DNA of 64,000 nt from Ilumatobacteraceae bacterium (GTDB taxonomy: Bacteria > Actinomycetota > Acidimicrobiia > Acidimicrobiales > Ilumatobacteraceae): the NCBI GenBank assembly GCA_025463305.1, contig JAOBWK010000095.1, positions 1 through 64,000 on the forward strand, in the 5' to 3' direction. Positions within the stretch are counted from its first letter, which is position 1. Each line of letters begins with the position of its first letter. The notes under the pieces were generated by a model that did no database searches, was not told where the DNA came from, and was given only the letters and a program-made list of their open reading frames with translations. Of this stretch, positions 4,749 to 57,601 are shown piece by piece. Position numbers and translations under genes: made by a program.

Positions 4749-6188
4749 ATGACCTCGTTGGCCGATGACACCCGGTGGATGGACGCGACGGACCAGGCGG
4801 CGCTCGTCGCCCGTGGCGACGCGAGCCCGAGCGAGCTGCTGGAGGCAGCGATCGACCGAATCGAGCGCATCGATCCCGCACTCAACGCCGTCGTGATCCG
4901 CTGGTTCGACCACGCCCGCGAGACCGCTGCCGATCCGGCGCTGCCCGACGGTCCCTTTCGAGGCGTGCCCTTCCTGCTCAAGGACCTGTGGGCGGCATAC
5001 GCCGGTCAGCTCATCACCAACGGCAACGCCGGCCTCAAGCGCGCTGGCATCGCGTCGCCCGCCGACACCACGCTCGTCAGTCGCTACCGGGCCGCGGGGC
5101 TGGTGATCGCCGGGCGCACGAACAGCCCCGAGCTGGGCAGTGTGCCCACCACCGAGCCGCTCGCATGGGGCGCCACCCACAACCCCTGGGACACCGCTCG
5201 CACGCCCGGCGGATCGAGCGGCGGTTCCGGCGCGGCGGTGGCGTCGGGCATGGTGCCGTTCGCCCACGCCAGCGATGGCGGAGGATCGATCCGCATCCCC
5301 GCTTCGTGTTGCGGACTCGTCGGGCTCAAGCCGAGCCAGGGCCGGATCTCGCTCGGACCCCAGCGCGACGAGAGCGGTCTCGGCGTCGAGCACTGCCTCA
5401 CCCGCACGGTGCGCGACTCCGCCGCGCTGCTCGACGCCACGCACGGCCCGGGCGTCGGCGACACCGTCATCGCACCGCGGCCGAGCCGTCCCTACCTCGC
5501 CGAGGTCGGTGCCGATCCCGGTCGGCTGCGGATCGGCGTGCTCGACCACCATCCGCAGGGCGGCCACGTCGATGCGGAGTGCACGACGGCGGCGCAGAAC
5601 GCAGCGACGCTGCTCGAGTCGTTGGGCCACACGGTGGAGATCGGCTGGCCGACGGCGCTGGAGGACCGCTCATTCGGCGCGCAGTTCGGTGCGCTGTGGG
5701 CAGCGAACATGGGCGTGTCCCTGCAGCGCTTCGAGACGATGATCGGGCGCCCACTCGCCGACGACGAGTTCGAGCCGATGAACCGGGCCCAGGCCGACCT
5801 CGCCTCGCGCTTCACCGCGATCGAGTACGCGATGTCGCTCGCCGCCGTCGCTCAGTACCGCCGCGCGGTTCAGGGCTGGTGGGCCGACGGTTGGGACCTG
5901 CTGCTCACGCCGACGCTCGCCGAGGTGCCGCTGCCGCTCGGCACGATCCGCAACGTGGAGGGCAGTCCGCTCGACGGCGTCATCCGGTCAGGGCAGTTCG
6001 TGCCGTTCACGCCGCCGTTCAACACCTCGGGCCAGCCGGCCATCAGCCTGCCGCTGCACTGGACCGACGCCGGCCTGCCCGTGGGCGTGCAGCTCGTGGC
6101 CGCCTACGGTCGCGAGGACGTCCTCATCCGCGTCGCGGCGCAGCTGGAGCAGGCGGTGCCGTGGGCGCACCGCACACCGCCGATCTGA
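4749..6188 (+). CDS. Amidase-signature family hydrolase
   Basis: 479 aa from ATG at 4749 ([10 protein letters not shown]). It hydrolyses an amide bond using the Ser-cisSer-Lys triad. The Lys is in PFLLKDLW (~residue 80). The Gly/Ser-rich signature [14 protein letters not shown] (~155-170) carries the cis-Ser, and [10 protein letters not shown] (~180) the nucleophile. Closest in style to the amidase/6-aminohexanoate-cyclic-dimer hydrolase group; substrate unknown. It is divergent from the MFS exporter with 63 bases between the starts. A second amidase occurs at 35657-37057, with only moderate resemblance. Confidence 0.88.
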
Positions 6189-6217
6189 GCCGGGCGATCT
6201 CGTTCTGCGAGCCGTGA

Positions 6218-6994
6218 TCAGCGAGCCGTCCAGCCCCCGTCGACGATGACGGACTGACCGGTCATGAAGGTGCTCGCCCGGCTGGCGAGGAGCAGCAACG
6301 CGCCGTCGAGCTCGTGCGCGTAACCCATGCGCGGGATCGGCGAGTTCTGGTGGACGAACCGCTGGCTGCCCTCGTCGCTCTCCATGCCCGCCGTCATCTC
6401 ACTCTCGAACCATCCCGGGCAGAGCGCGTTGACGCGGACACCACGCCGGGCCCACTGCACGCCGAGCTCACGGGTGAGGTTCACGACGGCACCCTTCGAC
6501 GCGCAGTAGTTGGCCTGCTTGATCGGCGAGCCGGCGACGTGGCCGAGCATCGACGCGATGTTCACGATCGAGCCGTACCCCTGCTCGATCATCGGTGCCG
6601 CAGCGAGCTTGCTCAGCTGCCAGACGGCGGTGACGTTGACCTCCATCACGTCGCGGAACGTGTCGAGCTCCTCCAGCTCGGCGGCGACGACGCGGCTGAT
6701 GCCGGCGTTGTTGACGAGCACGTGGATCGTGCCGCACTGCTCGATCGCCGTGGCGATCAACCGCTCGCGGTCCTCGGGCTGGGCGAGGTCGGCCGTGACC
6801 GCGAGTGATCCGGGCAGCTCCTCGACCAACGCGGCCAGTCGATCGGCCCGCCGCGCGGCGACGACCACGGTGGCGCCGGCCGCGTGCAGCACCCGGGCGA
6901 AGCGCTCGCCCAGCCCGGACGAGGCACCGGTGACGACCACGACCTGATCGTCGAGGCGGAACAGGGACAGCGGGTCGAGATCCGTGGGGAGCAT
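6218..6994 (-). CDS. Short-chain dehydrogenase/reductase
   Basis: 258 aa classical SDR: TGASSGLG cofactor-binding motif at ~residue 22, NNAG at ~95, catalytic Ser in NIASMLG and YCASK (Tyr-Lys) near 160, and C-terminal GQSVIVDGGW. It is an NAD(P)-dependent oxidoreductase. The ATG at 6994 is the first good start. Arg residues after the first strand (AARRADR) favour NADP. It is convergent with the amidase gene and has no operon partner. The substrate is not predictable. Confidence 0.88.
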   Translation of the reverse strand: MLPTDLDPLSLFRLDDQVVVVTGASSGLGERFARVLHAAGATVVVAARRADRLAALVEELPGSLAVTADLAQPEDRERLIATAIEQCGTIHVLVNNAGISRVVAAELEELDTFRDVMEVNVTAVWQLSKLAAAPMIEQGYGSIVNIASMLGHVAGSPIKQANYCASKGAVVNLTRELGVQWARRGVRVNALCPGWFESEMTAGMESDEGSQRFVHQNSPIPRMGYAHELDGALLLLASRASTFMTGQSVIVDGGWTAR

Positions 6995-34410: not shown

Positions 34411-35580
34411 TCACAGCCGCGGATGAGCGAGCAGGAACGCCACGATCTGCGCCGTCGCGTCGAAGCCCGCGTAGCCGGCGCCGTTGGCGGGCGTCACCAG
34501 CGGCGTGCCGCCGGGCCAGGAGTGGTTGGCGCCGGTGATGGTGACGAACTCGGCGGCCGCACCGTTCGCACACGGCGACCGGGTCTCGGTGGTGATGTCG
34601 CCCGACGTCGAGCTCGTTGCGGCCGGGCAACCGTCGGCGGCCGCCAACGTGTCGAAGCCGTCGTGCGGCGGAGCGAAGTCGACCGCGGCGATCGACTCGT
34701 TGCCGCGCCCACCGGCGAGCGGGATGTTCTGGTCAGCGGTGCCGTGACCGTGGATGACGGACACCGGCATCGCCGGGGTGCACGTGTCGATGCCGAGCGT
34801 GCCGGCCCACATCCCGATGCCGACGATGCGGTCGGACAGCTCACACGCCAGGCGGTAGCTCATGATCGCACCGTTCGAGTGCCCGTACGCGTAGACCCGA
34901 TGCGGATCGATGGAGTGGCTGGACTCGAGCGAGTCGATGAGCGCACGGATGAACCCGACGTCGTCGACGTTCTGGCGGGCGGCAACCCCGCAGCAGCTCC
35001 CGCCGTTCCAGACCTCACCGCGGCTGCCGGCGATCCTCACGCCGTCGGGATGCACGACGATGAACCCGTTGCTCTCGGCGAGGCCCTCGATGTGATCGGT
35101 CTGGGCGAACTGGTCGGCCCATCCGGTGCCGCCGTGCAGGCCGATGAACAGTGGCACCGGTCCGCTCGGCAACGTCGAGGGGACGTAGAGGCGGTAGGTG
35201 CGGACCACGCCGTCGACCGTGATCGAGCCGTGGGTCACGGTGCCGCTCGCCGCGCCCGCCGGCTGGAGCGCGACCGTCGTGGTCGTGGGCGCAACGGCCC
35301 CATCGGTCGCGGGCACGGTGGTCGCGGGCACGGTGGTCGCCGGCACGGCGATCGCCGGCACGGTGGTGGGAACCGGGCTCGTCGCGGCAGTCGTCGTCGC
35401 GACAGCCGTCGTCGTCGCGACAGCCGTCGTCGCGGGCACCGTCGTGACGGCTCCGCCGAGCGAGTCGTCGGTGCGGCGCGCCGAGCAGGCAGCGAGGACC
35501 ACCGCGAGCACGACCGAGGCCGCCTGCAGCTGGAACGTGGAACGGTGGAGGGCGGAGGACGGCCGGTGATCGGAGCGCAT
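34411..35580 (-). CDS. Second exported esterase lipoprotein, PHB depolymerase-like
   Basis: 389 aa from ATG at 35580 (MRSDHRPSSA). Lipobox LAAC near residue 32, then a linker of ATT/VPATT repeats to about 100. Catalytic domain: RTYRLYVPSTLP, LFIGLHGGTGWADQF, VWNGGSCCG, nucleophile elbow GHSNGAIM (~245), HGHGTADQNIP and NHSWPGG (His, ~360). It has the same fold and order as its downstream neighbour but a distinct sequence, so it is an old duplication. Ends 48 bases before the neighbour begins. Confidence 0.83.
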   Translation of the reverse strand: MRSDHRPSSALHRSTFQLQAASVVLAVVLAACSARRTDDSLGGAVTTVPATTAVATTTAVATTTAATSPVPTTVPAIAVPATTVPATTVPATDGAVAPTTTTVALQPAGAASGTVTHGSITVDGVVRTYRLYVPSTLPSGPVPLFIGLHGGTGWADQFAQTDHIEGLAESNGFIVVHPDGVRIAGSRGEVWNGGSCCGVAARQNVDDVGFIRALIDSLESSHSIDPHRVYAYGHSNGAIMSYRLACELSDRIVGIGMWAGTLGIDTCTPAMPVSVIHGHGTADQNIPLAGGRGNESIAAVDFAPPHDGFDTLAAADGCPAATSSTSGDITTETRSPCANGAAAEFVTITGANHSWPGGTPLVTPANGAGYAGFDATAQIVAFLLAHPRL

Positions 35581-49773: not shown

Positions 49774-51288
49774 TCATTCGGTGTTCGAACCATGCTCGCG
49801 CGTGGGCACCGTGGTGGGCGTCGCGGCATCGGGCGCGGGACCGAACCACGTCGTCAGCGCGTGCGGGAGGTCCGGGTCCGTCAGCTCGCCGACCCAGGCG
49901 ACGTGGCCGTCGGGCCGGATCAGCACAGCCGACGGAGCGGGCACCTCGCCGAGGACCGGGAGCTCCCACGCGCCGACGTGTTCGGCGTCCACGAGGCGCA
50001 CCCGGTCGGCCCACGGGGCGATGTCGAACCGGCCAGCCCTGCCGAGGTTCAGCAGCACGGGCCGGGCCTCGTGCAGCAGTTCATAGACGCGCGTCGAGTC
50101 GGCCGCGGTGCGCAGATCGATGTCCGGCATCCGTCGACCGACCAGCGGATGGCCTTCGCCGAGGTCGTAGTGGATGTCGAGCGCAGCGAGCATCCCCGCC
50201 AGTCTCCGGCGCGGGCCGTCCATCACCACGAGCCCGGCCAACGTGTCGCGCAGGGCCTGGTGGCGGTCGTCGGGACTGCTCAGCGCGACCTGCGCCATCG
50301 TGCTGCGCAACACACGCGCACCGACCGGATGACGTTCGGTGTGATAGGTGTCGAGCAGGCTGTCGGGCGACATCCCGTTCACCACCTGGGCCAGCTTCCA
50401 GCCGAGGTTCACGGCGTCCTGCACGCCGGTGTTGAGGCCCTGGCCGCCCTGCGGAGGATGCAGGTGCGCGGCGTCGCCGGCGAGCAGAACCCGGCCGTGC
50501 CGGTACGTCGCTGCCTGGCGCGTCATGTCCGTGAACCGCGAGATCCAGTTGGCGCTGCGCAGCCCGAAGTCGGTCCCGTAGATGCCGACGAGCGCCTCGC
50601 GCAGATCGTCCATCGTGGGCTCGCCGGCGTGTTGGACCGATCGCTCGGTGAGCACGACCCGGATCGGTTCGCCGGCTGCGCGCCGTCCGATCGCGTGCTG
50701 GCCGAGGGCGTCGCGGCGGAACCCGAACTCCGGCTCGCCGTCCATCTCGACCTCCGCGATCATCCAGCTCGTCGACGGATCCAGGCCGACGAAGTCGATG
50801 CCGGCAGCCTTGCGCACGAGGCTGCGGCCGCCGTCGCAGCCGACGAGGTACCGCGCACGGATCGACTCGCCGCTCGACAGCTCGACGTCGACGCCCGTGT
50901 GGTCCTGGGCGAGCCCGACCACCTCGGCGCCACGGAGCGTCGGCACACCGAGCTCTTCCACCCAGCCGGCGAGGATCGGCTCGAACGTGGCTTGCCACAG
51001 CGCCAGGCCGTAGGGATGCCGGGTCGGGAAGTCGCTGATGTCCAACGGCACCCCGCCGAACGCGTTCGTCTGCATGATCTGCCCGGCCTCGATGAACCGT
51101 TCGGCGATCCCCCGCTGGTCGAGCACCTCGATGGTGCGCGAGTGCAGACCACCGGCTCGCGACCCGTCGACCTGCTGGTTCGTGCGACGTTCGACGACGA
51201 CGACGTCGACGCCCGCCAGCGCCAGCTCACCCGCCAACATCATCCCCGTCGGACCGCCGCCGGCGACCACCACCGCATGTTCCGTCAT
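49774..51288 (-). CDS. FAD-dependent aromatic hydroxylase (PheA/TfdB/Rox-like)
   Basis: 504 aa from ATG at 51288 with GGAGG six bases before it. Class A flavoprotein monooxygenase: VVVAGGGPTGMMLAGELA (GxGxxG, ~5), the DG motif YLVGCDGGRSLVRKAAGI (~150) and GRVLLAGDAAHLHPPQGGQGLNTGVQDA (GD motif, 268-295). The C-terminal thioredoxin-like domain (from ~400) matches the PheA/TfdB and rifampicin monooxygenase branch. It hydroxylates an aromatic or polyketide compound with NAD(P)H and O2. Operon with the downstream VOC gene. Confidence 0.9.
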   Translation of the reverse strand: MTEHAVVVAGGGPTGMMLAGELALAGVDVVVVERRTNQQVDGSRAGGLHSRTIEVLDQRGIAERFIEAGQIMQTNAFGGVPLDISDFPTRHPYGLALWQATFEPILAGWVEELGVPTLRGAEVVGLAQDHTGVDVELSSGESIRARYLVGCDGGRSLVRKAAGIDFVGLDPSTSWMIAEVEMDGEPEFGFRRDALGQHAIGRRAAGEPIRVVLTERSVQHAGEPTMDDLREALVGIYGTDFGLRSANWISRFTDMTRQAATYRHGRVLLAGDAAHLHPPQGGQGLNTGVQDAVNLGWKLAQVVNGMSPDSLLDTYHTERHPVGARVLRSTMAQVALSSPDDRHQALRDTLAGLVVMDGPRRRLAGMLAALDIHYDLGEGHPLVGRRMPDIDLRTAADSTRVYELLHEARPVLLNLGRAGRFDIAPWADRVRLVDAEHVGAWELPVLGEVPAPSAVLIRPDGHVAWVGELTDPDLPHALTTWFGPAPDAATPTTVPTREHGSNTE

Positions 51289-51537
51289 CGAACCCTCCGT
51301 CATCGCAACTCCCCCGCCGCCGACGCCGATTGCCCGGCGGACGAGCAATGATCAGCACGTTTTGGTCGTTTGCGGCAAGCCCCCCTCCTCGCGGTACGTT
51401 GTTCATGGCGGGAGAGATCGGTGTGACGAGCTGCGGCTGCGCCCCCTCCAGGATCGACGAACTGGACGCGTGATCGGCCCACATCGGCCACGATCCAGCA
51501 GCCAGTTGCCGGGCTGTTGTTCCGTTGCGCGACGCGA

Positions 51538-51933
51538 TCAGCTCGGGGGTCCGATGAGATCCCACTTGTTGCCGGCGACGTCGACGAACACGACGACGGT
51601 GCCGTATGCCTCGACGCGCGGGGCTTCGGTGAACTCGACGCCGTGGTCGAGCATGCGGCGGTACGCCACGTCGAAGTCGTCGACGCGCAGGATGAACCCG
51701 ACTCGTCCCGCGACCTGATCACCGACCGACGCCGACTGCCGTGCGTCGTCCGCCTGTGCCAGCAGCACACCGGTCTCGGCGCCGGGCGGGCGCACCACGA
51801 CCCAACGCTTCGGACGACCATCGTTCGTCAACGACGGCGTGTCCTCGACGAGCTCGAACCCCAAGGCGTCGACGAAGAACCGGATCGCCGCGTCGTAGTC
51901 CTCCACGATGATCGTCATCGACTCGATGTGCAT
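51538..51933 (-). CDS. VOC-family protein
   Basis: 131 aa from ATG at 51933 (MHIESMTIIVEDYDAAIRFF). Two VOC modules are visible, with RVGFILRVDDFDVAYRRMLDHGVEF and the closing VFVDVAGNKWDLIGP. A small cytoplasmic enzyme or binding protein of unknown substrate. The 249-base region on its other side (51289-51537) has no recognisable gene, RNA or repeat. Confidence 0.85.
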   Translation of the reverse strand: MHIESMTIIVEDYDAAIRFFVDALGFELVEDTPSLTNDGRPKRWVVVRPPGAETGVLLAQADDARQSASVGDQVAGRVGFILRVDDFDVAYRRMLDHGVEFTEAPRVEAYGTVVVFVDVAGNKWDLIGPPS

Positions 51934-51986
51934 CGAGCGAACGTAGCTGGCTGCGGTCACGTCGTGCCGACGGGAGGCGGCAGAGG

Positions 51987-53513
51987 TCAGGGCTCGTCCA
52001 GTTGAGGCGTGCCGTCGACGACCTGCCCGATCGGGTTGCCCCTTGCATCGATGATCGTGACGGGTGAGCCGAAGCGCGACCCGGTCGGTGGCGGCGCATC
52101 GAGTTCGGCGGTCAACACGTACCCGACGACGAGTCCGTCCTTGCCGACCGGCGTGTACTTGCGATGGGTGGATCCGTCGGTCCCGCCCAGGGATGGCAAC
52201 TCGTCGGAGGGTACCGAGCCGACCGGCGGTAGAGAGGGGTCGTCTGATGGCACGGCCGGGATGCACGAGGCGGACGATGCGGGGACGATGCCGACGTCGA
52301 TGGCGACGGGCTCTTCGCCGGCCACCGATCGGCCTCTGAAGAGATCGGCGATCGCGTGGCTGTTGGGGCTGGCAAGGTCCGGCGTGAAGCCAGCGGTACC
52401 GACGCTGCCGGAGAAGTCGTACATCCCGAAGTCGGCCGCAGGAACCGCAACCACCGTGTCGAGCTGATCGATGAGATCGGCCTCGAGCAGGTTGTGGTCG
52501 GTCACGATGTTCGGTTCGAGGCCGGTGATCACCGTTGCGGCGTTCCACGAGGCGAGCGTGCCGTTGGCCACCCCGGTCGCGATCAGACGGCGGAGGAAGT
52601 CGAACTGACGGTAGATCCGACCGCGCTCACCCGAGGGGTCGGTGCGCCACTCGCCGGCTGCGGTCTCGTACTCGAGATGGGTCGACGTGAGATACGGGGC
52701 GATGTCGCTGCTCGTGAACGTGTGGCATCCGGGCTCCGTGACATCGAGACCCGTCTGGGCGTCGCGGACGGCGTAGGGCAGAGGAACAGCGATGCTTCCG
52801 ACGGCGTCGAGCAGCGACCCGACGGCGCACTGGTCGAGCTGGACGTAGTGGTCGATGGCGATGAAGAACGTGACGTAGATCTGATCGACGAGCAGCTCCG
52901 GGTTGTCGATGGCGAAGATCGAACCGAGCGTCGTCGTCGCATTTTCCCTGTCCTTCACGACGAGGTTCGTGGGAATGCCGAGCAGGCTGGCGCGTCCCGT
53001 CGTCAGGTCCGTCCGAAGGACTTGGATCGACAGCGTGGCCGGATCGACCTCGGTCGTCGAGCTGGTCTGGCACGTGTCGGCGGTGAAGCTGACGATGAGC
53101 GTGTTCTCCGCGGTCGATGCGTCGATCGAGCCATCGGTGACCGGGCTGGCTGTCGTGCTCGGGAGGGACGAAGTGCTCTCCGGCACGACGGGGAGGGGAA
53201 CTGACGAGTTCGTCACCGCGCTCGGCGTGTCCGTCCGGACGACGGACGGATTGGTCGGGGGCTCCTGGTGGGACGTGACCAGTTCGCGGCGGTCGGAGGC
53301 TCGCGTCGCGGAGAACGTGATGGCCGACGCAACGACGACCACCGCCGCAGCGATTCCCGATGTCGTCAGCCGACGCGAGCGACGATGCTGTCGAGCAGCG
53401 CGATCGATGTCGGTCTGCATCGTCGGTCCAGGCGTGATGTCGCTCGTGGCGGCGCGGAGGCGTGATCGCAAGCGTGCCTCGAGGTCGGAACCGTCCGGTT
53501 CGTCGTGGTTCAT
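51987..53513 (-). CDS. Membrane protein with degenerate LCP-like ectodomain, sigma factor partner
   Basis: 508 aa, ATGA overlap with the upstream ECF sigma gene. The N-terminal ~45 cytoplasmic residues end in an Arg-rich stretch, then one membrane helix (~50-70), then a Thr/Pro/Ser linker to ~135. The ectodomain resembles LytR-CpsA-Psr: LLGIPTNLVV (normally IPRD), AIDHYVQLDQCAVGSLLDAVG, and DPSGERGRIYRQFDFLRRLI. The usual Arg-Asp after IP is Thr-Asn, so phosphotransferase activity is doubtful. A C-terminal extension from ~380 is unique. Probably an anti-sigma-like sensor; the cytoplasmic part lacks an obvious zinc motif. Confidence 0.7.
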   Translation of the reverse strand: MNHDEPDGSDLEARLRSRLRAATSDITPGPTMQTDIDRAARQHRRSRRLTTSGIAAAVVVVASAITFSATRASDRRELVTSHQEPPTNPSVVRTDTPSAVTNSSVPLPVVPESTSSLPSTTASPVTDGSIDASTAENTLIVSFTADTCQTSSTTEVDPATLSIQVLRTDLTTGRASLLGIPTNLVVKDRENATTTLGSIFAIDNPELLVDQIYVTFFIAIDHYVQLDQCAVGSLLDAVGSIAVPLPYAVRDAQTGLDVTEPGCHTFTSSDIAPYLTSTHLEYETAAGEWRTDPSGERGRIYRQFDFLRRLIATGVANGTLASWNAATVITGLEPNIVTDHNLLEADLIDQLDTVVAVPAADFGMYDFSGSVGTAGFTPDLASPNSHAIADLFRGRSVAGEEPVAIDVGIVPASSASCIPAVPSDDPSLPPVGSVPSDELPSLGGTDGSTHRKYTPVGKDGLVVGYVLTAELDAPPPTGSRFGSPVTIIDARGNPIGQVVDGTPQLDEP

Positions 53514-54049
53514 GCGCCCTCCTCGAGGATGCGTCGAAGGTGGGCGAGTGCCCGGCTGCTGTGCGTCTTCACCGTGCCGACCGAGACGCCGAGGATGCGC
53601 GCGACCTCGATCTCGGACACATCGTCGTGGTATCGGAGGACCACCACCGTCCGCTGGCGAACGGGCAGTTCGGCGAGCGCGGCGACGAGCGGGTCCCGGT
53701 TCGTTTCGGGTGTGAGATCACCTTCGGCACGGATCTGGCTCGAGTATCGAGCGATCGCTCGCCGCTCGTGGACGCGCCGTCGGTGACGTGACCGAACCTC
53801 GTTGACGACCGCTCGCCGCAGGTATTGCAACGGGTTCTCGATCACTCCCGTACGCCACTTCGGGAGCACTCTCGCGAACACATCCGCGGTGATCTCGTCG
53901 GCTACGTGCCGATCACCGGAGAGCAGAACCGCGAGCTTCAACACCGCTGCGTGGTGGTCGGCGAAGACTGTGGCGAACCCGTCGTCGACGTTGCGCTGCA
54001 CGCCCTCGTTCAGGATGGTGATGTCGACCGGATGCTGCATCTCAACCAT
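53510..54049 (-). CDS. ECF RNA polymerase sigma factor (SigE-like)
   Basis: 179 aa from ATG at 54049 (MVEMQHPVDI), with GGGAG five bases upstream; the longer frame would need a TTG at 54091. Sigma region 2: FATVFADHHAAVLKLAVLLSGDRHVADEITADVFARVLPKW. Region 4: LAELPVRQRTVVVLRYHDDVSEIEVARILGVSVGTVKTHSSRALAHL (positions in the last third). No region 3, as expected. Co-expressed with the LCP-like membrane protein by ATGA overlap. Divergent from the second ECF gene. Confidence 0.88.
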   Translation of the reverse strand: MVEMQHPVDITILNEGVQRNVDDGFATVFADHHAAVLKLAVLLSGDRHVADEITADVFARVLPKWRTGVIENPLQYLRRAVVNEVRSRHRRRVHERRAIARYSSQIRAEGDLTPETNRDPLVAALAELPVRQRTVVVLRYHDDVSEIEVARILGVSVGTVKTHSSRALAHLRRILEEGA

Positions 54050-54096
54050 CCAGACTCCCGAGGCACCGAGTCCGTTGACATCCGTCTCCAATTCGT

Positions 54097-54131
54097 CGGT
54101 TCAGACGACGGTGCTTCCGGTTCACGGTGCT
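54097..54131. promoter_or_regulatory. Paired direct repeats between two divergent sigma genes
   Basis: CGGTTCA occurs at 54097-54103 and 54118-54124; CGGTGCT at 54109-54115 and 54125-54131. The two pairs have different inner spacing (five bases versus none). They lie in the 127-base gap between the ECF starts at 54049 and 54177. They may be sigma or regulator sites; this is inference from position only. Confidence 0.35.
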
Positions 54132-54176
54132 CGATCTTGGCGGTTGTCGCACTCGGGTGGGGTTACATGTGTCGTG

Positions 54177-54632
54177 ATGGTCGATGACGACGCTGAGGTG
54201 TACCGCAGGTATGCCGGCGATCTGATTCGATTCGCGACCGCACTGGTCGGCCCGCACGATGCCGAGGACGTGCTGGCGACTGCGGTGGTGCACGCTCTGG
54301 CGACGCCCCGTTGGGTACACGTGGACAACCGTCGGGCGTACCTCTATCGCGCCATCCTTCACGAGGCGTCGAAGTTGCGGCGCTCTGCACGACGTCGCCG
54401 CGCGCGGGAGGAGCGGGCCGCGACACCCGGTTCGGTCGAGCAGGTGGCCGGGGATGTGGATGTGCTGGTCGCATTGCGCGGCCTGTCGGAGCGTCAGCGT
54501 GCGGTCGTGTTCCTGACGTACTGGGCGGACCTGGACGTGGCTGCGGTCGCTGCCGAGTTGGGTGTGTCCGTGCGCACCGTCGAGCGGGAGTTGACCGCGT
54601 CGAGAGCGATGTTGGCAAGGAGGCTGTCATGA
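54177..54632 (+). CDS. Small ECF-like sigma factor
   Basis: 151 aa from ATG at 54177 (GTG at 54174 is in frame too). Region 2: VYRRYAGDLIRFATALVGPHDAEDVLATAVVHAL. Region 4 HTH: LSERQRAVVFLTYWADLDVAAVAAELGVSVRTVERELTAS (~105-145). It is at the short end for the ECF family (160-200). The stop overlaps the start of a membrane protein (ATGA), copying the layout of the divergent sigma-LCP pair. Confidence 0.82.
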   Translation: MVDDDAEVYRRYAGDLIRFATALVGPHDAEDVLATAVVHALATPRWVHVDNRRAYLYRAILHEASKLRRSARRRRAREERAATPGSVEQVAGDVDVLVALRGLSERQRAVVFLTYWADLDVAAVAAELGVSVRTVERELTASRAMLARRLS

Positions 54633-56380
54633 GCGAGTCCGTCGATGACCGGATCCGTGCCCTCATGGGCGAGATCGATCGCGTCGCGCCGCCGCCGCCG
54701 GATTTCGCCACGCTCCGCACGACCCCTCACCGGAACCCGACCGCCGCACCCGCCCCGGCCGCATACGGTGACGAGCCCCGGTCGCGCCGACACGTGATCG
54801 GACCGGCGATCGCGGCAGCGCTCATCGTCCTCGCGGTCGGTGTCGTCGTGATCGCACGCGCGTCCAGCCATCACGTGTCGACGATCTCACCGACTCCCGG
54901 CACGTCCCTCGATGAACCGACCGCGAGCACGTCGATCGGAACGGCCCCGGTGACGACCGTCACGACCGCTCCGTCATCGACGTCGTCGACCACCACGACG
55001 ACCGCTCAAACATCCACGGCATCCACGACTCCGGCCGCGACGCCCTCGTCAGCACTGATCGTGCATCCGTTCGGGTCGCGCAGCGAGGTCATCGACGTCG
55101 GCGTGACCGACGCCAACGTCACCACACACAGAGCAGCGACCAACCCTGGCGACGTGGTGCTGGACTACGAGCTGCAGATCGGCTTCGACCCCCGCAACCT
55201 CAGCAGCACCATCGAAACCCCGGCGGCAACCTCGGACACCCAGCTGGCGATCGAGACCAGCTGCGCGACCTCGGGTTGCCTCAGCGTGCAGCCGGTCAAC
55301 GACCGGATCCAGACCACGGTCCAGCTGACGGTGCGCCGCACGACCGTCGACCTCACCCGGGGCGAGCACGATGCCCCGTTCGCGATCCACTTCACCGACG
55401 GCACCGTCGAGCGCTTCACCATCGGGCTGTACGCCGAACCGGCCCCGTCGGAGGCGATCGCGACGCAAGCCACCACCCTGACCGGGCCGCCGAGAGCGAT
55501 CCAGACCGTGTTCGACATCGGCCACTTCGACTACCACATGATCTCGGCGTTCGGCTCGATCTGGCTGCTCGGCCAGAGCTCGTACAGCGTGACCCGGCTC
55601 GACGCCAGGACGGGCGCCGTGCTCGCGTCGATCCCGATCGGCATCCCCAGCAACCGCCTCACCGCCAACGCCGACGCTGTCTACGTCGCCGGCGACCCAG
55701 TGCTCCGAATCGACCCGGCGACGAACACCGTCACTCCGCTCACGGCTCCCGGTCTCACCGTCAACTCGAGAGCGATCATCGCCGACGGCCAGACCCTCTG
55801 GGCCGCCAGTCTCACCGGCGGCATCTACCGCATCGACCCGGACGGCACCGTCACCATCTTGCACCCGTCGACGCCAGCGGCGTGGGTCGATCTCGCTGTC
55901 TCCCACGGGAAGGTCTGGGCACTCGGCCGGGACACCAGCGGTGCCCGACTCGTCTCGTTCGACGAGTCCACCAGCGTCCCAGTCGACAGTCTCAGCATTC
56001 CGCTCGGCCCGAACCTCGGGATCCCGGCGCGCCTCGTCGCCGACGAACGCGACGTCGTCGTCGGCATCGATCCCCGCACCGGTGGCGCCAACGGGTTCCA
56101 GTCCAACGGGGAGCTCGTGATCGTCGACCCCGACGGCGCGACGATCACCGCCACCGTGCCGCTCCCGACGAGACCCGAAGGGATCGTCCTCACCGACCTG
56201 CACATCTGGACCAGCGGTGCCGTGCTCGACCGGACCACGCTCGCCGTCACGCCGATCACCCTCGGGTTCACCATCGCACGCGGACCCGACGGCTCCATCT
56301 GGGCAACGACCATCAACTCCGGCAGCTTCGACGCGACCTCGATCGCCATTCGCTACGCACCCGGCGACGACTCAGGCTGA
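54629..56380 (+). CDS. Membrane protein with beta-propeller-like ectodomain, sigma factor partner
   Basis: 583 aa from ATG at 54629. The cytoplasmic N-terminus (~1-55) is followed by one membrane helix (HVIGPAIAAALIVLAVGVVVIA), a Ser/Thr linker (~80-140), then an immunoglobulin-like beta stretch with two Cys (SCATSGCL) and, from ~290, repeated blades of the YncE/Vgb type (GSIWLLGQSSYSVTRLDARTG, DGQTLWAASLTGGIYRIDPDG, HGKVWALGRD, PDGSIWATTIN). An extracellular propeller behind a sigma factor suggests a ligand-sensing anti-sigma-like role; this is inference. Confidence 0.72.
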   Translation: MSESVDDRIRALMGEIDRVAPPPPDFATLRTTPHRNPTAAPAPAAYGDEPRSRRHVIGPAIAAALIVLAVGVVVIARASSHHVSTISPTPGTSLDEPTASTSIGTAPVTTVTTAPSSTSSTTTTTAQTSTASTTPAATPSSALIVHPFGSRSEVIDVGVTDANVTTHRAATNPGDVVLDYELQIGFDPRNLSSTIETPAATSDTQLAIETSCATSGCLSVQPVNDRIQTTVQLTVRRTTVDLTRGEHDAPFAIHFTDGTVERFTIGLYAEPAPSEAIATQATTLTGPPRAIQTVFDIGHFDYHMISAFGSIWLLGQSSYSVTRLDARTGAVLASIPIGIPSNRLTANADAVYVAGDPVLRIDPATNTVTPLTAPGLTVNSRAIIADGQTLWAASLTGGIYRIDPDGTVTILHPSTPAAWVDLAVSHGKVWALGRDTSGARLVSFDESTSVPVDSLSIPLGPNLGIPARLVADERDVVVGIDPRTGGANGFQSNGELVIVDPDGATITATVPLPTRPEGIVLTDLHIWTSGAVLDRTTLAVTPITLGFTIARGPDGSIWATTINSGSFDATSIAIRYAPGDDSG

Positions 56381-56456
56381 GGGGCCTCGACATCGATCTC
56401 GGTCATCGCATTGCGCACCTACACTCGGCGCCAGCACCAACCAGGGTGGAGGACCG

Positions 56457-56843
56457 ATGAGCGAGAACCAGATCGTCACCGTACGGCCGAACGAGATGGT
56501 CGACACACTGCAGCACCTGCCGAACTTCGTGGGTGTCTCGCGGGACACCACCGGCGCGACGGGCATCGGGATGAACATCGTCGTGATCCCGGCTGGAGCA
56601 GCCGCTGAGCCCCACTACCACGAGGGGTTCGAGACGGCGATCTACATCCTGTCGGGCCGGGTCGAGACGCGCTACGGCGAAGGACTCCGCGAGGTCGTCG
56701 TCAACGAGGCCGGAGACTTCCTGTTCATCCCGGCCGGCGTACCGCATCAGCCACGCAACCTCAGCGACACCGAGGCCGCTCGAGCGCTCGTCGCCCGGAA
56801 CACCCCTGCCGAACAAGAATCGGTCGTGGCCTACCACCCGTAG
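56457..56843 (+). CDS. Cupin-domain protein
   Basis: 128 aa with GGAGGACCG before the ATG. One cupin barrel: PHYHEGFETAIYILSGRVETRYG (motif 1, positions 52-74, with His and Glu metal ligands) and GDFLFIPAGVPHQPRNLS (motif 2, ~93-110). A mononuclear metal enzyme or sensor of unknown role. It starts 76 bases behind the beta-propeller gene and has its own strong ribosome binding site. Confidence 0.88.
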   Translation: MSENQIVTVRPNEMVDTLQHLPNFVGVSRDTTGATGIGMNIVVIPAGAAAEPHYHEGFETAIYILSGRVETRYGEGLREVVVNEAGDFLFIPAGVPHQPRNLSDTEAARALVARNTPAEQESVVAYHP

Positions 56844-56872
56844 CGATCAGATCAGCGTGCCGATCAGCTCGC

Positions 56873-57601
56873 TCACGGACGAAGGCCACCGTCGGAGTAC
56901 AGCAACTGGCTGTTGATCCACTGCCCGTCCGGGGAGCAGAGGAACCGGACGAGGTTGGCGCAGTCCGCGGGCACGCCGACGCGGGGCTGCAGGTTGCGGG
57001 CGCGCACTTCGGCTTCGATCGAGTCGTTCATCCAGCCGGTGTCGGTCGCCCCCGGGTTGACGACGTTGCAGGTGATGCCGCGCGCGGCGAACTCGACGGC
57101 GGCGGCGAGCACGATGCGGTCCATCGCCGCCTTACTGGCCCCGTATGGCATGTTGAAGGCCGTGTGATCGCTCGTGATCGACACGATTCGACCGGTGCCC
57201 GGCTCGGTGACGAACTGCTCCGCGAAGGCTCTGATCAGCAACCAGGTCGCTCGAACATTGATCGCGAAGTGACGATCGAAGCTCTCCACGGTCGTGTCGA
57301 CGATGTTGGAGTCGACCGACTCGCAGTGGCACAGGATCAACGCGGACACCGGTCCAGCGAGATCATTGGCCCGTTCGAGCACGATGGCCGGTGTCGACGG
57401 ATCGGCCAGATCGGCCTCGATGTCGGCCAGGGGAACGTCGTCTGCGCCCCACCGCATTCGTTGGTCATAACCACGCCAACCGGCGGTGACGACTCGCCAT
57501 CCATCGGTGCGCAAGGCAGTTGCCACCGCAGCGCCGATTCCCCGTGAGCGGCCGACGCCCGTGATGACAGCGACGGGCGGGTCATCGCTGTGCGCCGACA
57601 T
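56873..57601 (-). CDS. SDR-family oxidoreductase
   Basis: 242 aa from ATG at 57601 (MSAHSDDPPVAVITG); an upstream start would add 50 residues with no SDR similarity. TGVGRSRGIG at ~14 is an expanded cofactor loop, CHCESVDSN replaces the usual NNAG at ~90, ITSDHTAF supplies Ser and YGASKAAMDR the Tyr-Lys pair (~150). The NNAG loss is unusual and may alter the active site. C-terminal LLYSDGG is standard. Divergent from the Rid gene. Confidence 0.83.
   Translation of the reverse strand: MSAHSDDPPVAVITGVGRSRGIGAAVATALRTDGWRVVTAGWRGYDQRMRWGADDVPLADIEADLADPSTPAIVLERANDLAGPVSALILCHCESVDSNIVDTTVESFDRHFAINVRATWLLIRAFAEQFVTEPGTGRIVSITSDHTAFNMPYGASKAAMDRIVLAAAVEFAARGITCNVVNPGATDTGWMNDSIEAEVRARNLQPRVGVPADCANLVRFLCSPDGQWINSQLLYSDGGLRP

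Follow-up and report, generated by a model that had tools for sequence, protein, structure and literature searches.

Positions 51,987 to 56,380 of the stretch analysed here (the window: 64,000 nucleotides, contig JAOBWK010000095.1 of an Ilumatobacteraceae bacterium) hold two genes for extracytoplasmic function (ECF) sigma factors, each followed by a gene for a membrane protein with a large ectodomain. We consider it probable that they form two adjacent, separate sigma/anti-sigma modules of an actinobacterial family that combines a very short cytosolic head with swappable sensors. The two gene pairs face away from a shared 127-nucleotide gap, and in both modules the sigma and membrane-protein genes overlap by 4 nucleotides (ATGA). 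Gene coordinates and profile matches bear out this anatomy, which a preliminary description of the DNA had given as head-to-head ECF sigma genes with a 127-base gap and ATGA coupling (Table 1). Layout, coupling, kinship of the heads, exchange of ectodomains, motifs upstream of related sigma genes and loss of active-site residues in the left ectodomain were each computed directly.

Both sigma proteins are ECF sigma-70 factors. They pass the TIGR02937 sigma70-ECF model (57.2 bits for the left and 52.7 for the right; cut-off 42.9) and the region 4 model PF08281 (56.1 and 43.2 bits; cut-off 25.7). With the region 2 model PF04542 (cut-off 24) the right sigma scores 26.0 bits and the left, at 23.5, falls just short. 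The top NCBIfam match of both is the SigE family, TIGR02983 (134.2 bits left, 73.9 right), yet neither reaches its curated cut-off of 141.55.

Relatives were collected from 397 genomes sampled from the order of G001, an Ilumatobacteraceae metagenome-assembled genome (MAG); the cytochrome b gene of the window was used to reach them. Its closest matches are in MAGs labelled Acidimicrobiales (up to 77%), the probable order of the host. The searches scored a few best-sharing candidates per genome. Left-type sigmas were matched in 187 of the 397 genomes (E up to 1e-15) and right-type sigmas in 65 (E up to 1e-10). The right-type scores break after 31 matches (E down to 2.6e-22), the next lying at 1.3e-17; 27 of the 31 were fetched, leaving out G136:C87, G373:C333, G242:C58 and G389:C37. 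Together with 73 loci from the left-type search, taken by rank and in some cases for long open frames, they make up 100 loci (1.06 Mb). A membrane protein was scored as coupled to a sigma if it exceeded 120 residues, started no more than 60 nucleotides from the end of the sigma gene, and had at most two helices, with a helix by residue 110. By these criteria 95 of 111 sigma-domain open reading frames (ORFs) had an early-helix partner directly downstream, either overlapping the sigma gene or adjoining it, and in 61 of the 95 the overlap was 4 nucleotides. The 16 failures include weak or non-anchor sigmas (L158 twice, L195, L240 and L244), contig ends (L231 and L233), helices below threshold (L152 and L160), a multi-pass protein (L205) and a fusion (L191). 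At L205:4995 (-) the protein that comes after a family sigma has a head and, in place of one membrane stretch, about ten predicted ones. In a sample of the phylum, left-type sigmas were matched in 80 of 296 genomes (E up to 1e-18); 29 of these loci (L278-L306) were fetched and read on the + strand only, 18 yielded a sigma, and 16 of the 18 had an early-helix protein downstream.

After removal of duplicates and of sigma scores under 80, 92 modules remained in addition to the two of the window. Pfam models matched a range of ectodomains among the 94 membrane proteins: Kelch in up to nine, Gmad2 in five, PASTA and PD40 in three each and SecDF_P1_head in two, with single members for Vgb lyase, YkuD, the FtsX extracellular domain and others. 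An ectodomain of the LytR-CpsA-Psr (LCP) family was found in one protein only, the left protein of the window (E up to 0.001). One member fits the YkuD profile, but a regular expression detected no YkuD-type active site. Similarities were correlated across 91 modules, window included, with membrane proteins of over 200 residues. Similarity of the heads was modestly related to that of the sigmas (Spearman 0.255, reached by 0 of 500 permutations), and the relation held (rho 0.231) when the comparison was confined to pairs whose ectodomains are dissimilar (3,927 of 4,095). Helix and linker followed the sigma weakly (rho 0.090, 4 of 500 permutations) and the ectodomain showed no relation to it (rho 0.039, 89 of 500). 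Sensors have been exchanged across the family; heads far less so.

Two fusions of sigma, membrane helix and ectodomain were recovered, P0029 (the ORF at 4962-6788 (+) in L191) and P0031, both with a SigE-family sigma. P0031 reads sigma, recognisable head, helix. Pfam finds only the sigma domains in the two proteins, and their large C-terminal ectodomains are without a match. Two further candidates were set aside: P0032, which looks frameshifted, was not counted as a fusion, and P0030 is without a C-terminal membrane part. Recurrent coupling, head similarity that tracks sigma similarity, and the two fusions agree with the earlier proposal that each sigma belongs with its membrane protein. Two features expected of a transmembrane anti-sigma factor, an operon shared with the sigma and a cytosolic head conserved with it, were found.

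The membrane helix begins at about residue 49 of the left protein and about residue 57 of the right. Relatives' heads share a loose D-L-E-x-R-L-R-x-x-L-x-x-x-A pattern, next a proline and then an arginine-rich run. The linkers beyond the helix are rich in serine and threonine (36% over residues 72-135 of the left protein and 56% over residues 80-142 of the right, against 21-22% overall), as had been noted before. The earlier remark that a classic zinc anti-sigma motif is missing also held, since H-X3-C-X2-C is absent from both membrane proteins and neither head contains a cysteine. A crude hydropathy scan marks an additional stretch near residue 403 of the left protein, in a region modelled with a predicted local distance difference test (pLDDT) score below 50; the left protein is putatively single-pass despite it. 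The left structure model (mean pLDDT 50) places helices at residues 9-23 and 30-71, with block pLDDT of 42-71 over residues 1-50; the right head is modelled at pLDDT under 40.

It is also possible, however, that the membrane proteins are co-regulated exported proteins encoded in a sigma operon and not anti-sigma factors, a reading that we regard as unlikely. It would fit with the lack of a recognised anti-sigma domain, and there are precedents: EcfY, a separate LCP protein of Bacillus thuringiensis, is thought to share the operon of an ECF sigma and a putative anti-sigma factor, and other LCP genes are described within cell-wall stress stimulons (PMC2632651). Against this, it is the cytosolic head and not the ectodomain that travels with the sigma across the family; P0031 retains the sigma, head and helix order; and the lost LCP active-site residues set out below would not be expected in a working effector.

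The two modules belong to separate lineages by sigma tree, head models and upstream motifs. The tree, built from 110 sigma domains, groups the right sigma with its 27 relatives (support 0.962) and places the left sigma outside. The nearest neighbour of the left sigma is L175 (support 0.93), whose membrane protein has an ectodomain that is Kelch-like by eye. Hidden Markov models of the heads, trained on relatives and correct in leave-one-out trials for 61 of 68 left-type and 21 of 25 right-type heads, give the left head 31.7 bits with its own-lineage model and 2.2 with the right-type model, and the right head 29.1 and 5.3 bits, respectively, with its own-lineage and the left-type model. AAC-N17-CGTC lies upstream of 41 of 76 left-type sigmas (randomly placed positions within these loci gave a mean of 2.0) and of 0 of 27 right-type sigmas. 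TGTCAC lies upstream of 16 of 27 right-type sigmas (1.2 at random places) and of 1 of 76 left-type sigmas.

These data bear on the proposal that the mirrored modules are one paired envelope-sensing system, co-evolved and cross-regulating through the shared divergent region. The mirrored layout around a common 127-nucleotide gap is what such a system would display, and the right-type modules of L166 (7450/8050) and L169 (6718/6986) likewise diverge from a distinct ECF module that has a membrane partner of its own. Those partner sigmas are distant, however: the family sigma model gives them 60.7 and 59.7, where the right-type sigmas of the two loci reach 180.0 and 169.7. A left-type sigma stands opposite a right-type sigma in none of the 27 fetched right-type loci. 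Eleven sigma-domain ORFs occur beyond one per locus in the 100 loci, some of them weak, and the two divergent ECF neighbours may be a mild excess over this density. In the protein database, three further right membrane proteins were found (75, 73 and 46% identical, the last from an Ilumatobacter MAG) and no further left protein with the head, three others matching without it; this too argues against a pair, weakly, given the short contigs and the few best-sharing candidates scored. With heads and upstream motifs split by lineage, and the two modules occurring apart in relatives at the level of the order, the paired system of the preliminary description is not upheld, and we think it quite improbable. 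Divergent ECF pairs do recur with changing partners, as in L166 and L169. Elsewhere (L198, L200 and L201) sigma/membrane-protein modules follow one another in tandem on the same strand, at distances of about 1.5-2.9 kb.

A promoter matrix for the left type was trained on sites from 48 relatives, window excluded. Its preferred site before the left sigma gene is a predicted ECF promoter that ranks 3 among 127,942 scanned positions. Scanned with the strict pattern, the gap gave a sole match, AAC-N16-CGT at 54145(-), which is not the site preferred by the matrix. TGTCAC, absent from the right module's upstream region, is also absent upstream of L149 and L154, the two nearest tree neighbours of the right sigma. 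No matches to sigma-70-type promoters or terminators were found within 51400-57000. The two highest matches to the left-type matrix anywhere in the window, at 35371 (+) and 42050 (+), lie inside predicted coding ORFs and may be chance.

By fold and family profile the left ectodomain belongs to the LCP family. It scores 30.1 bits with PF03816 (LytR_cpsA_psr; cut-off 24.6), the best Foldseek match of its model is PDB 5v8c (E 2.6e-14), and 5v8c is also matched by sequence; with NCBIfam TIGR00350 the protein stays below the cut-off (31.5 against 62.3 bits). It was compared with 33 LCP relatives, 30 of them from best-hit loci in the 397 genomes and three from the database. At 20 positions invariant in all 33, it has changed 15 and kept five (D251, C263, R299, R302 and Q303). 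The changes include the active-site positions D161 (L in the left protein), R182 (T), D183 (N), R276 (T), R278 (T) and Q304 (F); at position 159, arginine in 28 of 33 relatives, the protein has alanine. In the alignment with 5v8c, the counterparts of R128 and R149 in Actinomyces oris LcpA are positions 159 and 182 (numbering offset relative to the crystal construct, 77). R149 is described as needed for both glycosylation and pyrophosphatase activity, each abolished in R149A, while R128A retains glycosylation (PMC6381275). R266 is likewise described as needed for activity (PMC6381275); the alignment ends before it, and its counterpart is probably one of the arginines kept in the left protein. 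Two invariant phenylalanines that follow a conserved His-Tyr are also replaced (Q228 and V231), and because of these changes retention of a lipid tunnel cannot be claimed.

Judged by these residues, the left ectodomain is an LCP pseudoenzyme whose active-site residues have been lost. That it instead still transfers glycopolymers by means of a rearranged active site, making the left protein at once enzyme and regulator, is highly improbable: the fold and five residues invariant in 33/33 relatives are retained and the needed R266 probably has a counterpart, but A159 and T182 replace R128 and R149, the latter essential in LcpA, and D161, D183, R276, R278 and Q304 are gone as well. An LCP pseudoenzyme serving as a sensor goes beyond the LCP-like ectodomain proposed at the outset. 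No sigma gene was found beside any of the 30 best LCP relatives in the fetched flanks of up to 1,500 bases on each side, and the literature listings searched contained no anti-sigma factor with an LCP ectodomain, which is not proof of absence. Among the LCP genes closest to the left ectodomain, some form neighbouring pairs in three genomes (G339:C49, G235:C14 and G107:C8).

The right ectodomain consists of a beta-strand region and then a propeller. Its PDB sequence matches are to designed propellers (best E 8.1e-11), and propellers head the fold search with its model, which gave 987 matches in the PDB (E 0.001 or lower); no Pfam model is above cut-off. These matches fit a propeller of repeated four-strand blades; the structure model is of low confidence (mean pLDDT 50, with 64-91 in blocks 301-460). 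Sequence and fold matches thus support the assignments first suggested for both ectodomains, LCP-like on the left and beta-propeller on the right. A contig scan with the right membrane protein sequence gave no relative; a profile of the protein gave no match in six genomes and only partial propeller matches in 5 of 397.

In the proposed mechanism, each membrane protein would be a transmembrane anti-sigma factor whose short N-terminal head holds its own sigma inactive, and the ectodomain would sense a cue in the envelope or outside the cell. A signal would release the head, most likely by proteolysis; intramembrane proteolysis is described as releasing the sigma in known ECF systems (PMC8999054). 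The freed sigma would bind RNA polymerase and transcribe its targets, presumably including its own operon, from a lineage-specific promoter; such a promoter is predicted only for the left module. As an apparent LCP pseudoenzyme, the left sensor presumably keeps a binding function, and the right sensor would be the propeller. Binding of the sigma by the head, inhibition, proteolytic release, autoregulation and the ligands are inferred.

Several observations weigh against two separate sigma/anti-sigma modules of this kind. No Pfam family is above cut-off over either head, an NCBIfam anti-sigma model gives weak matches only (16.2 and 13.9 bits; cut-off 100), and the structure models of both membrane proteins are of low confidence. 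Binding of head to sigma is argued from the correlation and the two fusions, and the correlation could stem from joint inheritance of the operon rather than from contact; the ectodomains within those same operons, however, show no correlation. The fetched relatives are high-scoring matches and not a random draw, and for five of the 16 coupling failures (L190, L225, L229, L240 and L246) the scan found no partner. The predicted left promoter carries AGTC, not CGTC, and is missed by the strict AAC-N16..18-CGT pattern, and a convincing promoter of its own clade's type is lacking for the right module. The changes at Q228 and V231 count against the simplest lipid-sensor reading of the LCP domain.

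A further-reaching proposal, which we offer as a doubtful possibility, is an actinobacterial class of membrane anti-sigma factors with a minimal two-helix head, freely swapped sensors (Kelch, PASTA, Gmad2, propeller, LCP) and autoregulatory promoters that are lineage-specific and orthogonal to each other, in which the catalytically dead LCP domain would sense lipid-linked precursors of wall glycopolymers by binding them without turnover. If the preferred reading of separate sigma/anti-sigma modules is true, enzyme folds of wall building have been recruited as stress sensors wired to transcription, and actinobacteria hold a set of sigma/anti-sigma modules with a common, very short sigma-binding head and interchangeable outside domains. 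It would also yield a testable rule, that head and promoter follow the sigma while the sensor can be swapped, which would be useful for regulon prediction and for orthogonal switches.

Table 1. Features of the two modules (window coordinates).
Feature	Position	Strand	Size or extent	Description
Left membrane protein gene	51987-53513	-	508 aa	Short cytosolic head, membrane helix, Ser/Thr linker, LCP-fold putative pseudoenzyme ectodomain
LCP-fold domain	52416..53108	-	about residues 136-366	Without the conserved active-site residues
Left cytosolic head	53370..53513	-	residues 1-48	Putative minimal anti-sigma domain, left-sigma type (head model)
Left ECF sigma gene	53510-54049	-	179 aa	SigE-family-like (gene calls, profiles, tree)
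Divergent intergenic region	54050-54176		127 nt	
Predicted left-module ECF promoter	54053..54080	-		TGTCAAC-N17-AGTC, 3 nt before the assumed ATG
Right-module promoter candidate	54145..54173	+		TGTCGC then GTC; weak, degenerate, not significant (score 6.1, rank 234 of 127,944)
Right ECF sigma gene	54177-54632	+	151 aa	Separate clade in tree
Right membrane protein gene	54629-56380	+	583 aa	Cytosolic head, membrane helix, Ser/Thr linker, beta-strand domain, beta-propeller
Right cytosolic head	54629..54796	+	residues 1-56	Putative minimal anti-sigma domain, right-sigma type (head model)
Beta-propeller	55505..56368	+	about residues 293-580	PDB sequence match, model, fold search

Each membrane-protein gene is directly followed by another gene on its strand, a glyoxalase-fold gene (51538-51933 (-)) on the left and a cupin gene (56457-56843 (+)) on the right; the two are possible operon members or targets of the adjoining modules. 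No Rfam matches were found within 51000-57500, and PADLOC returned none for the four window proteins.

Among described systems, the modules resemble class I membrane anti-sigma factors of the RseA type, controlled by regulated proteolysis, in having sigma and membrane partner in one operon and a motif upstream of relatives' sigmas (PMC8999054, PMC7406223). They differ in that the heads run only about 48 and 56 residues to the membrane and that no class I domain or zinc motif was found. In head length they are closer to the class II pair CnrH/CnrY, whose anti-sigma domain is described as a short head with two helices contacting sigma 4 and sigma 2 (PMC7406223). The low-confidence left model also gives two helices; the likeness is one of head length and of this model, and the ectodomains differ. 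The actinobacterial groups ECF48, ECF52 and ECF53 are described as fused sigma/transmembrane regulators in the order sigma, helix, ectodomain, as in P0029 and P0031, but with a zinc-finger anti-sigma domain (PMC8999054), whereas the window genes are separate and encode no such domain. ECF57 also ties propeller-like repeats to an ECF sigma, through C-terminal WD40-like repeats (PMC8999054); in the window the propeller is on a separate protein, behind a membrane helix. EcfY of B. thuringiensis is an LCP protein linked to an ECF operon, and a part in the negative control of the sigma has been proposed for it, but it is separate from the putative anti-sigma factor EcfX (PMC2632651). In the left module the putative anti-sigma factor itself has the LCP fold as its ectodomain, with active-site residues lost. 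With LCP glycopolymer transferases such as A. oris LcpA (PDB 5v8c) the left ectodomain has the fold and part of the conserved core in common; the left protein differs from them in its added N-terminal head, its lost active-site residues and the sigma gene alongside.

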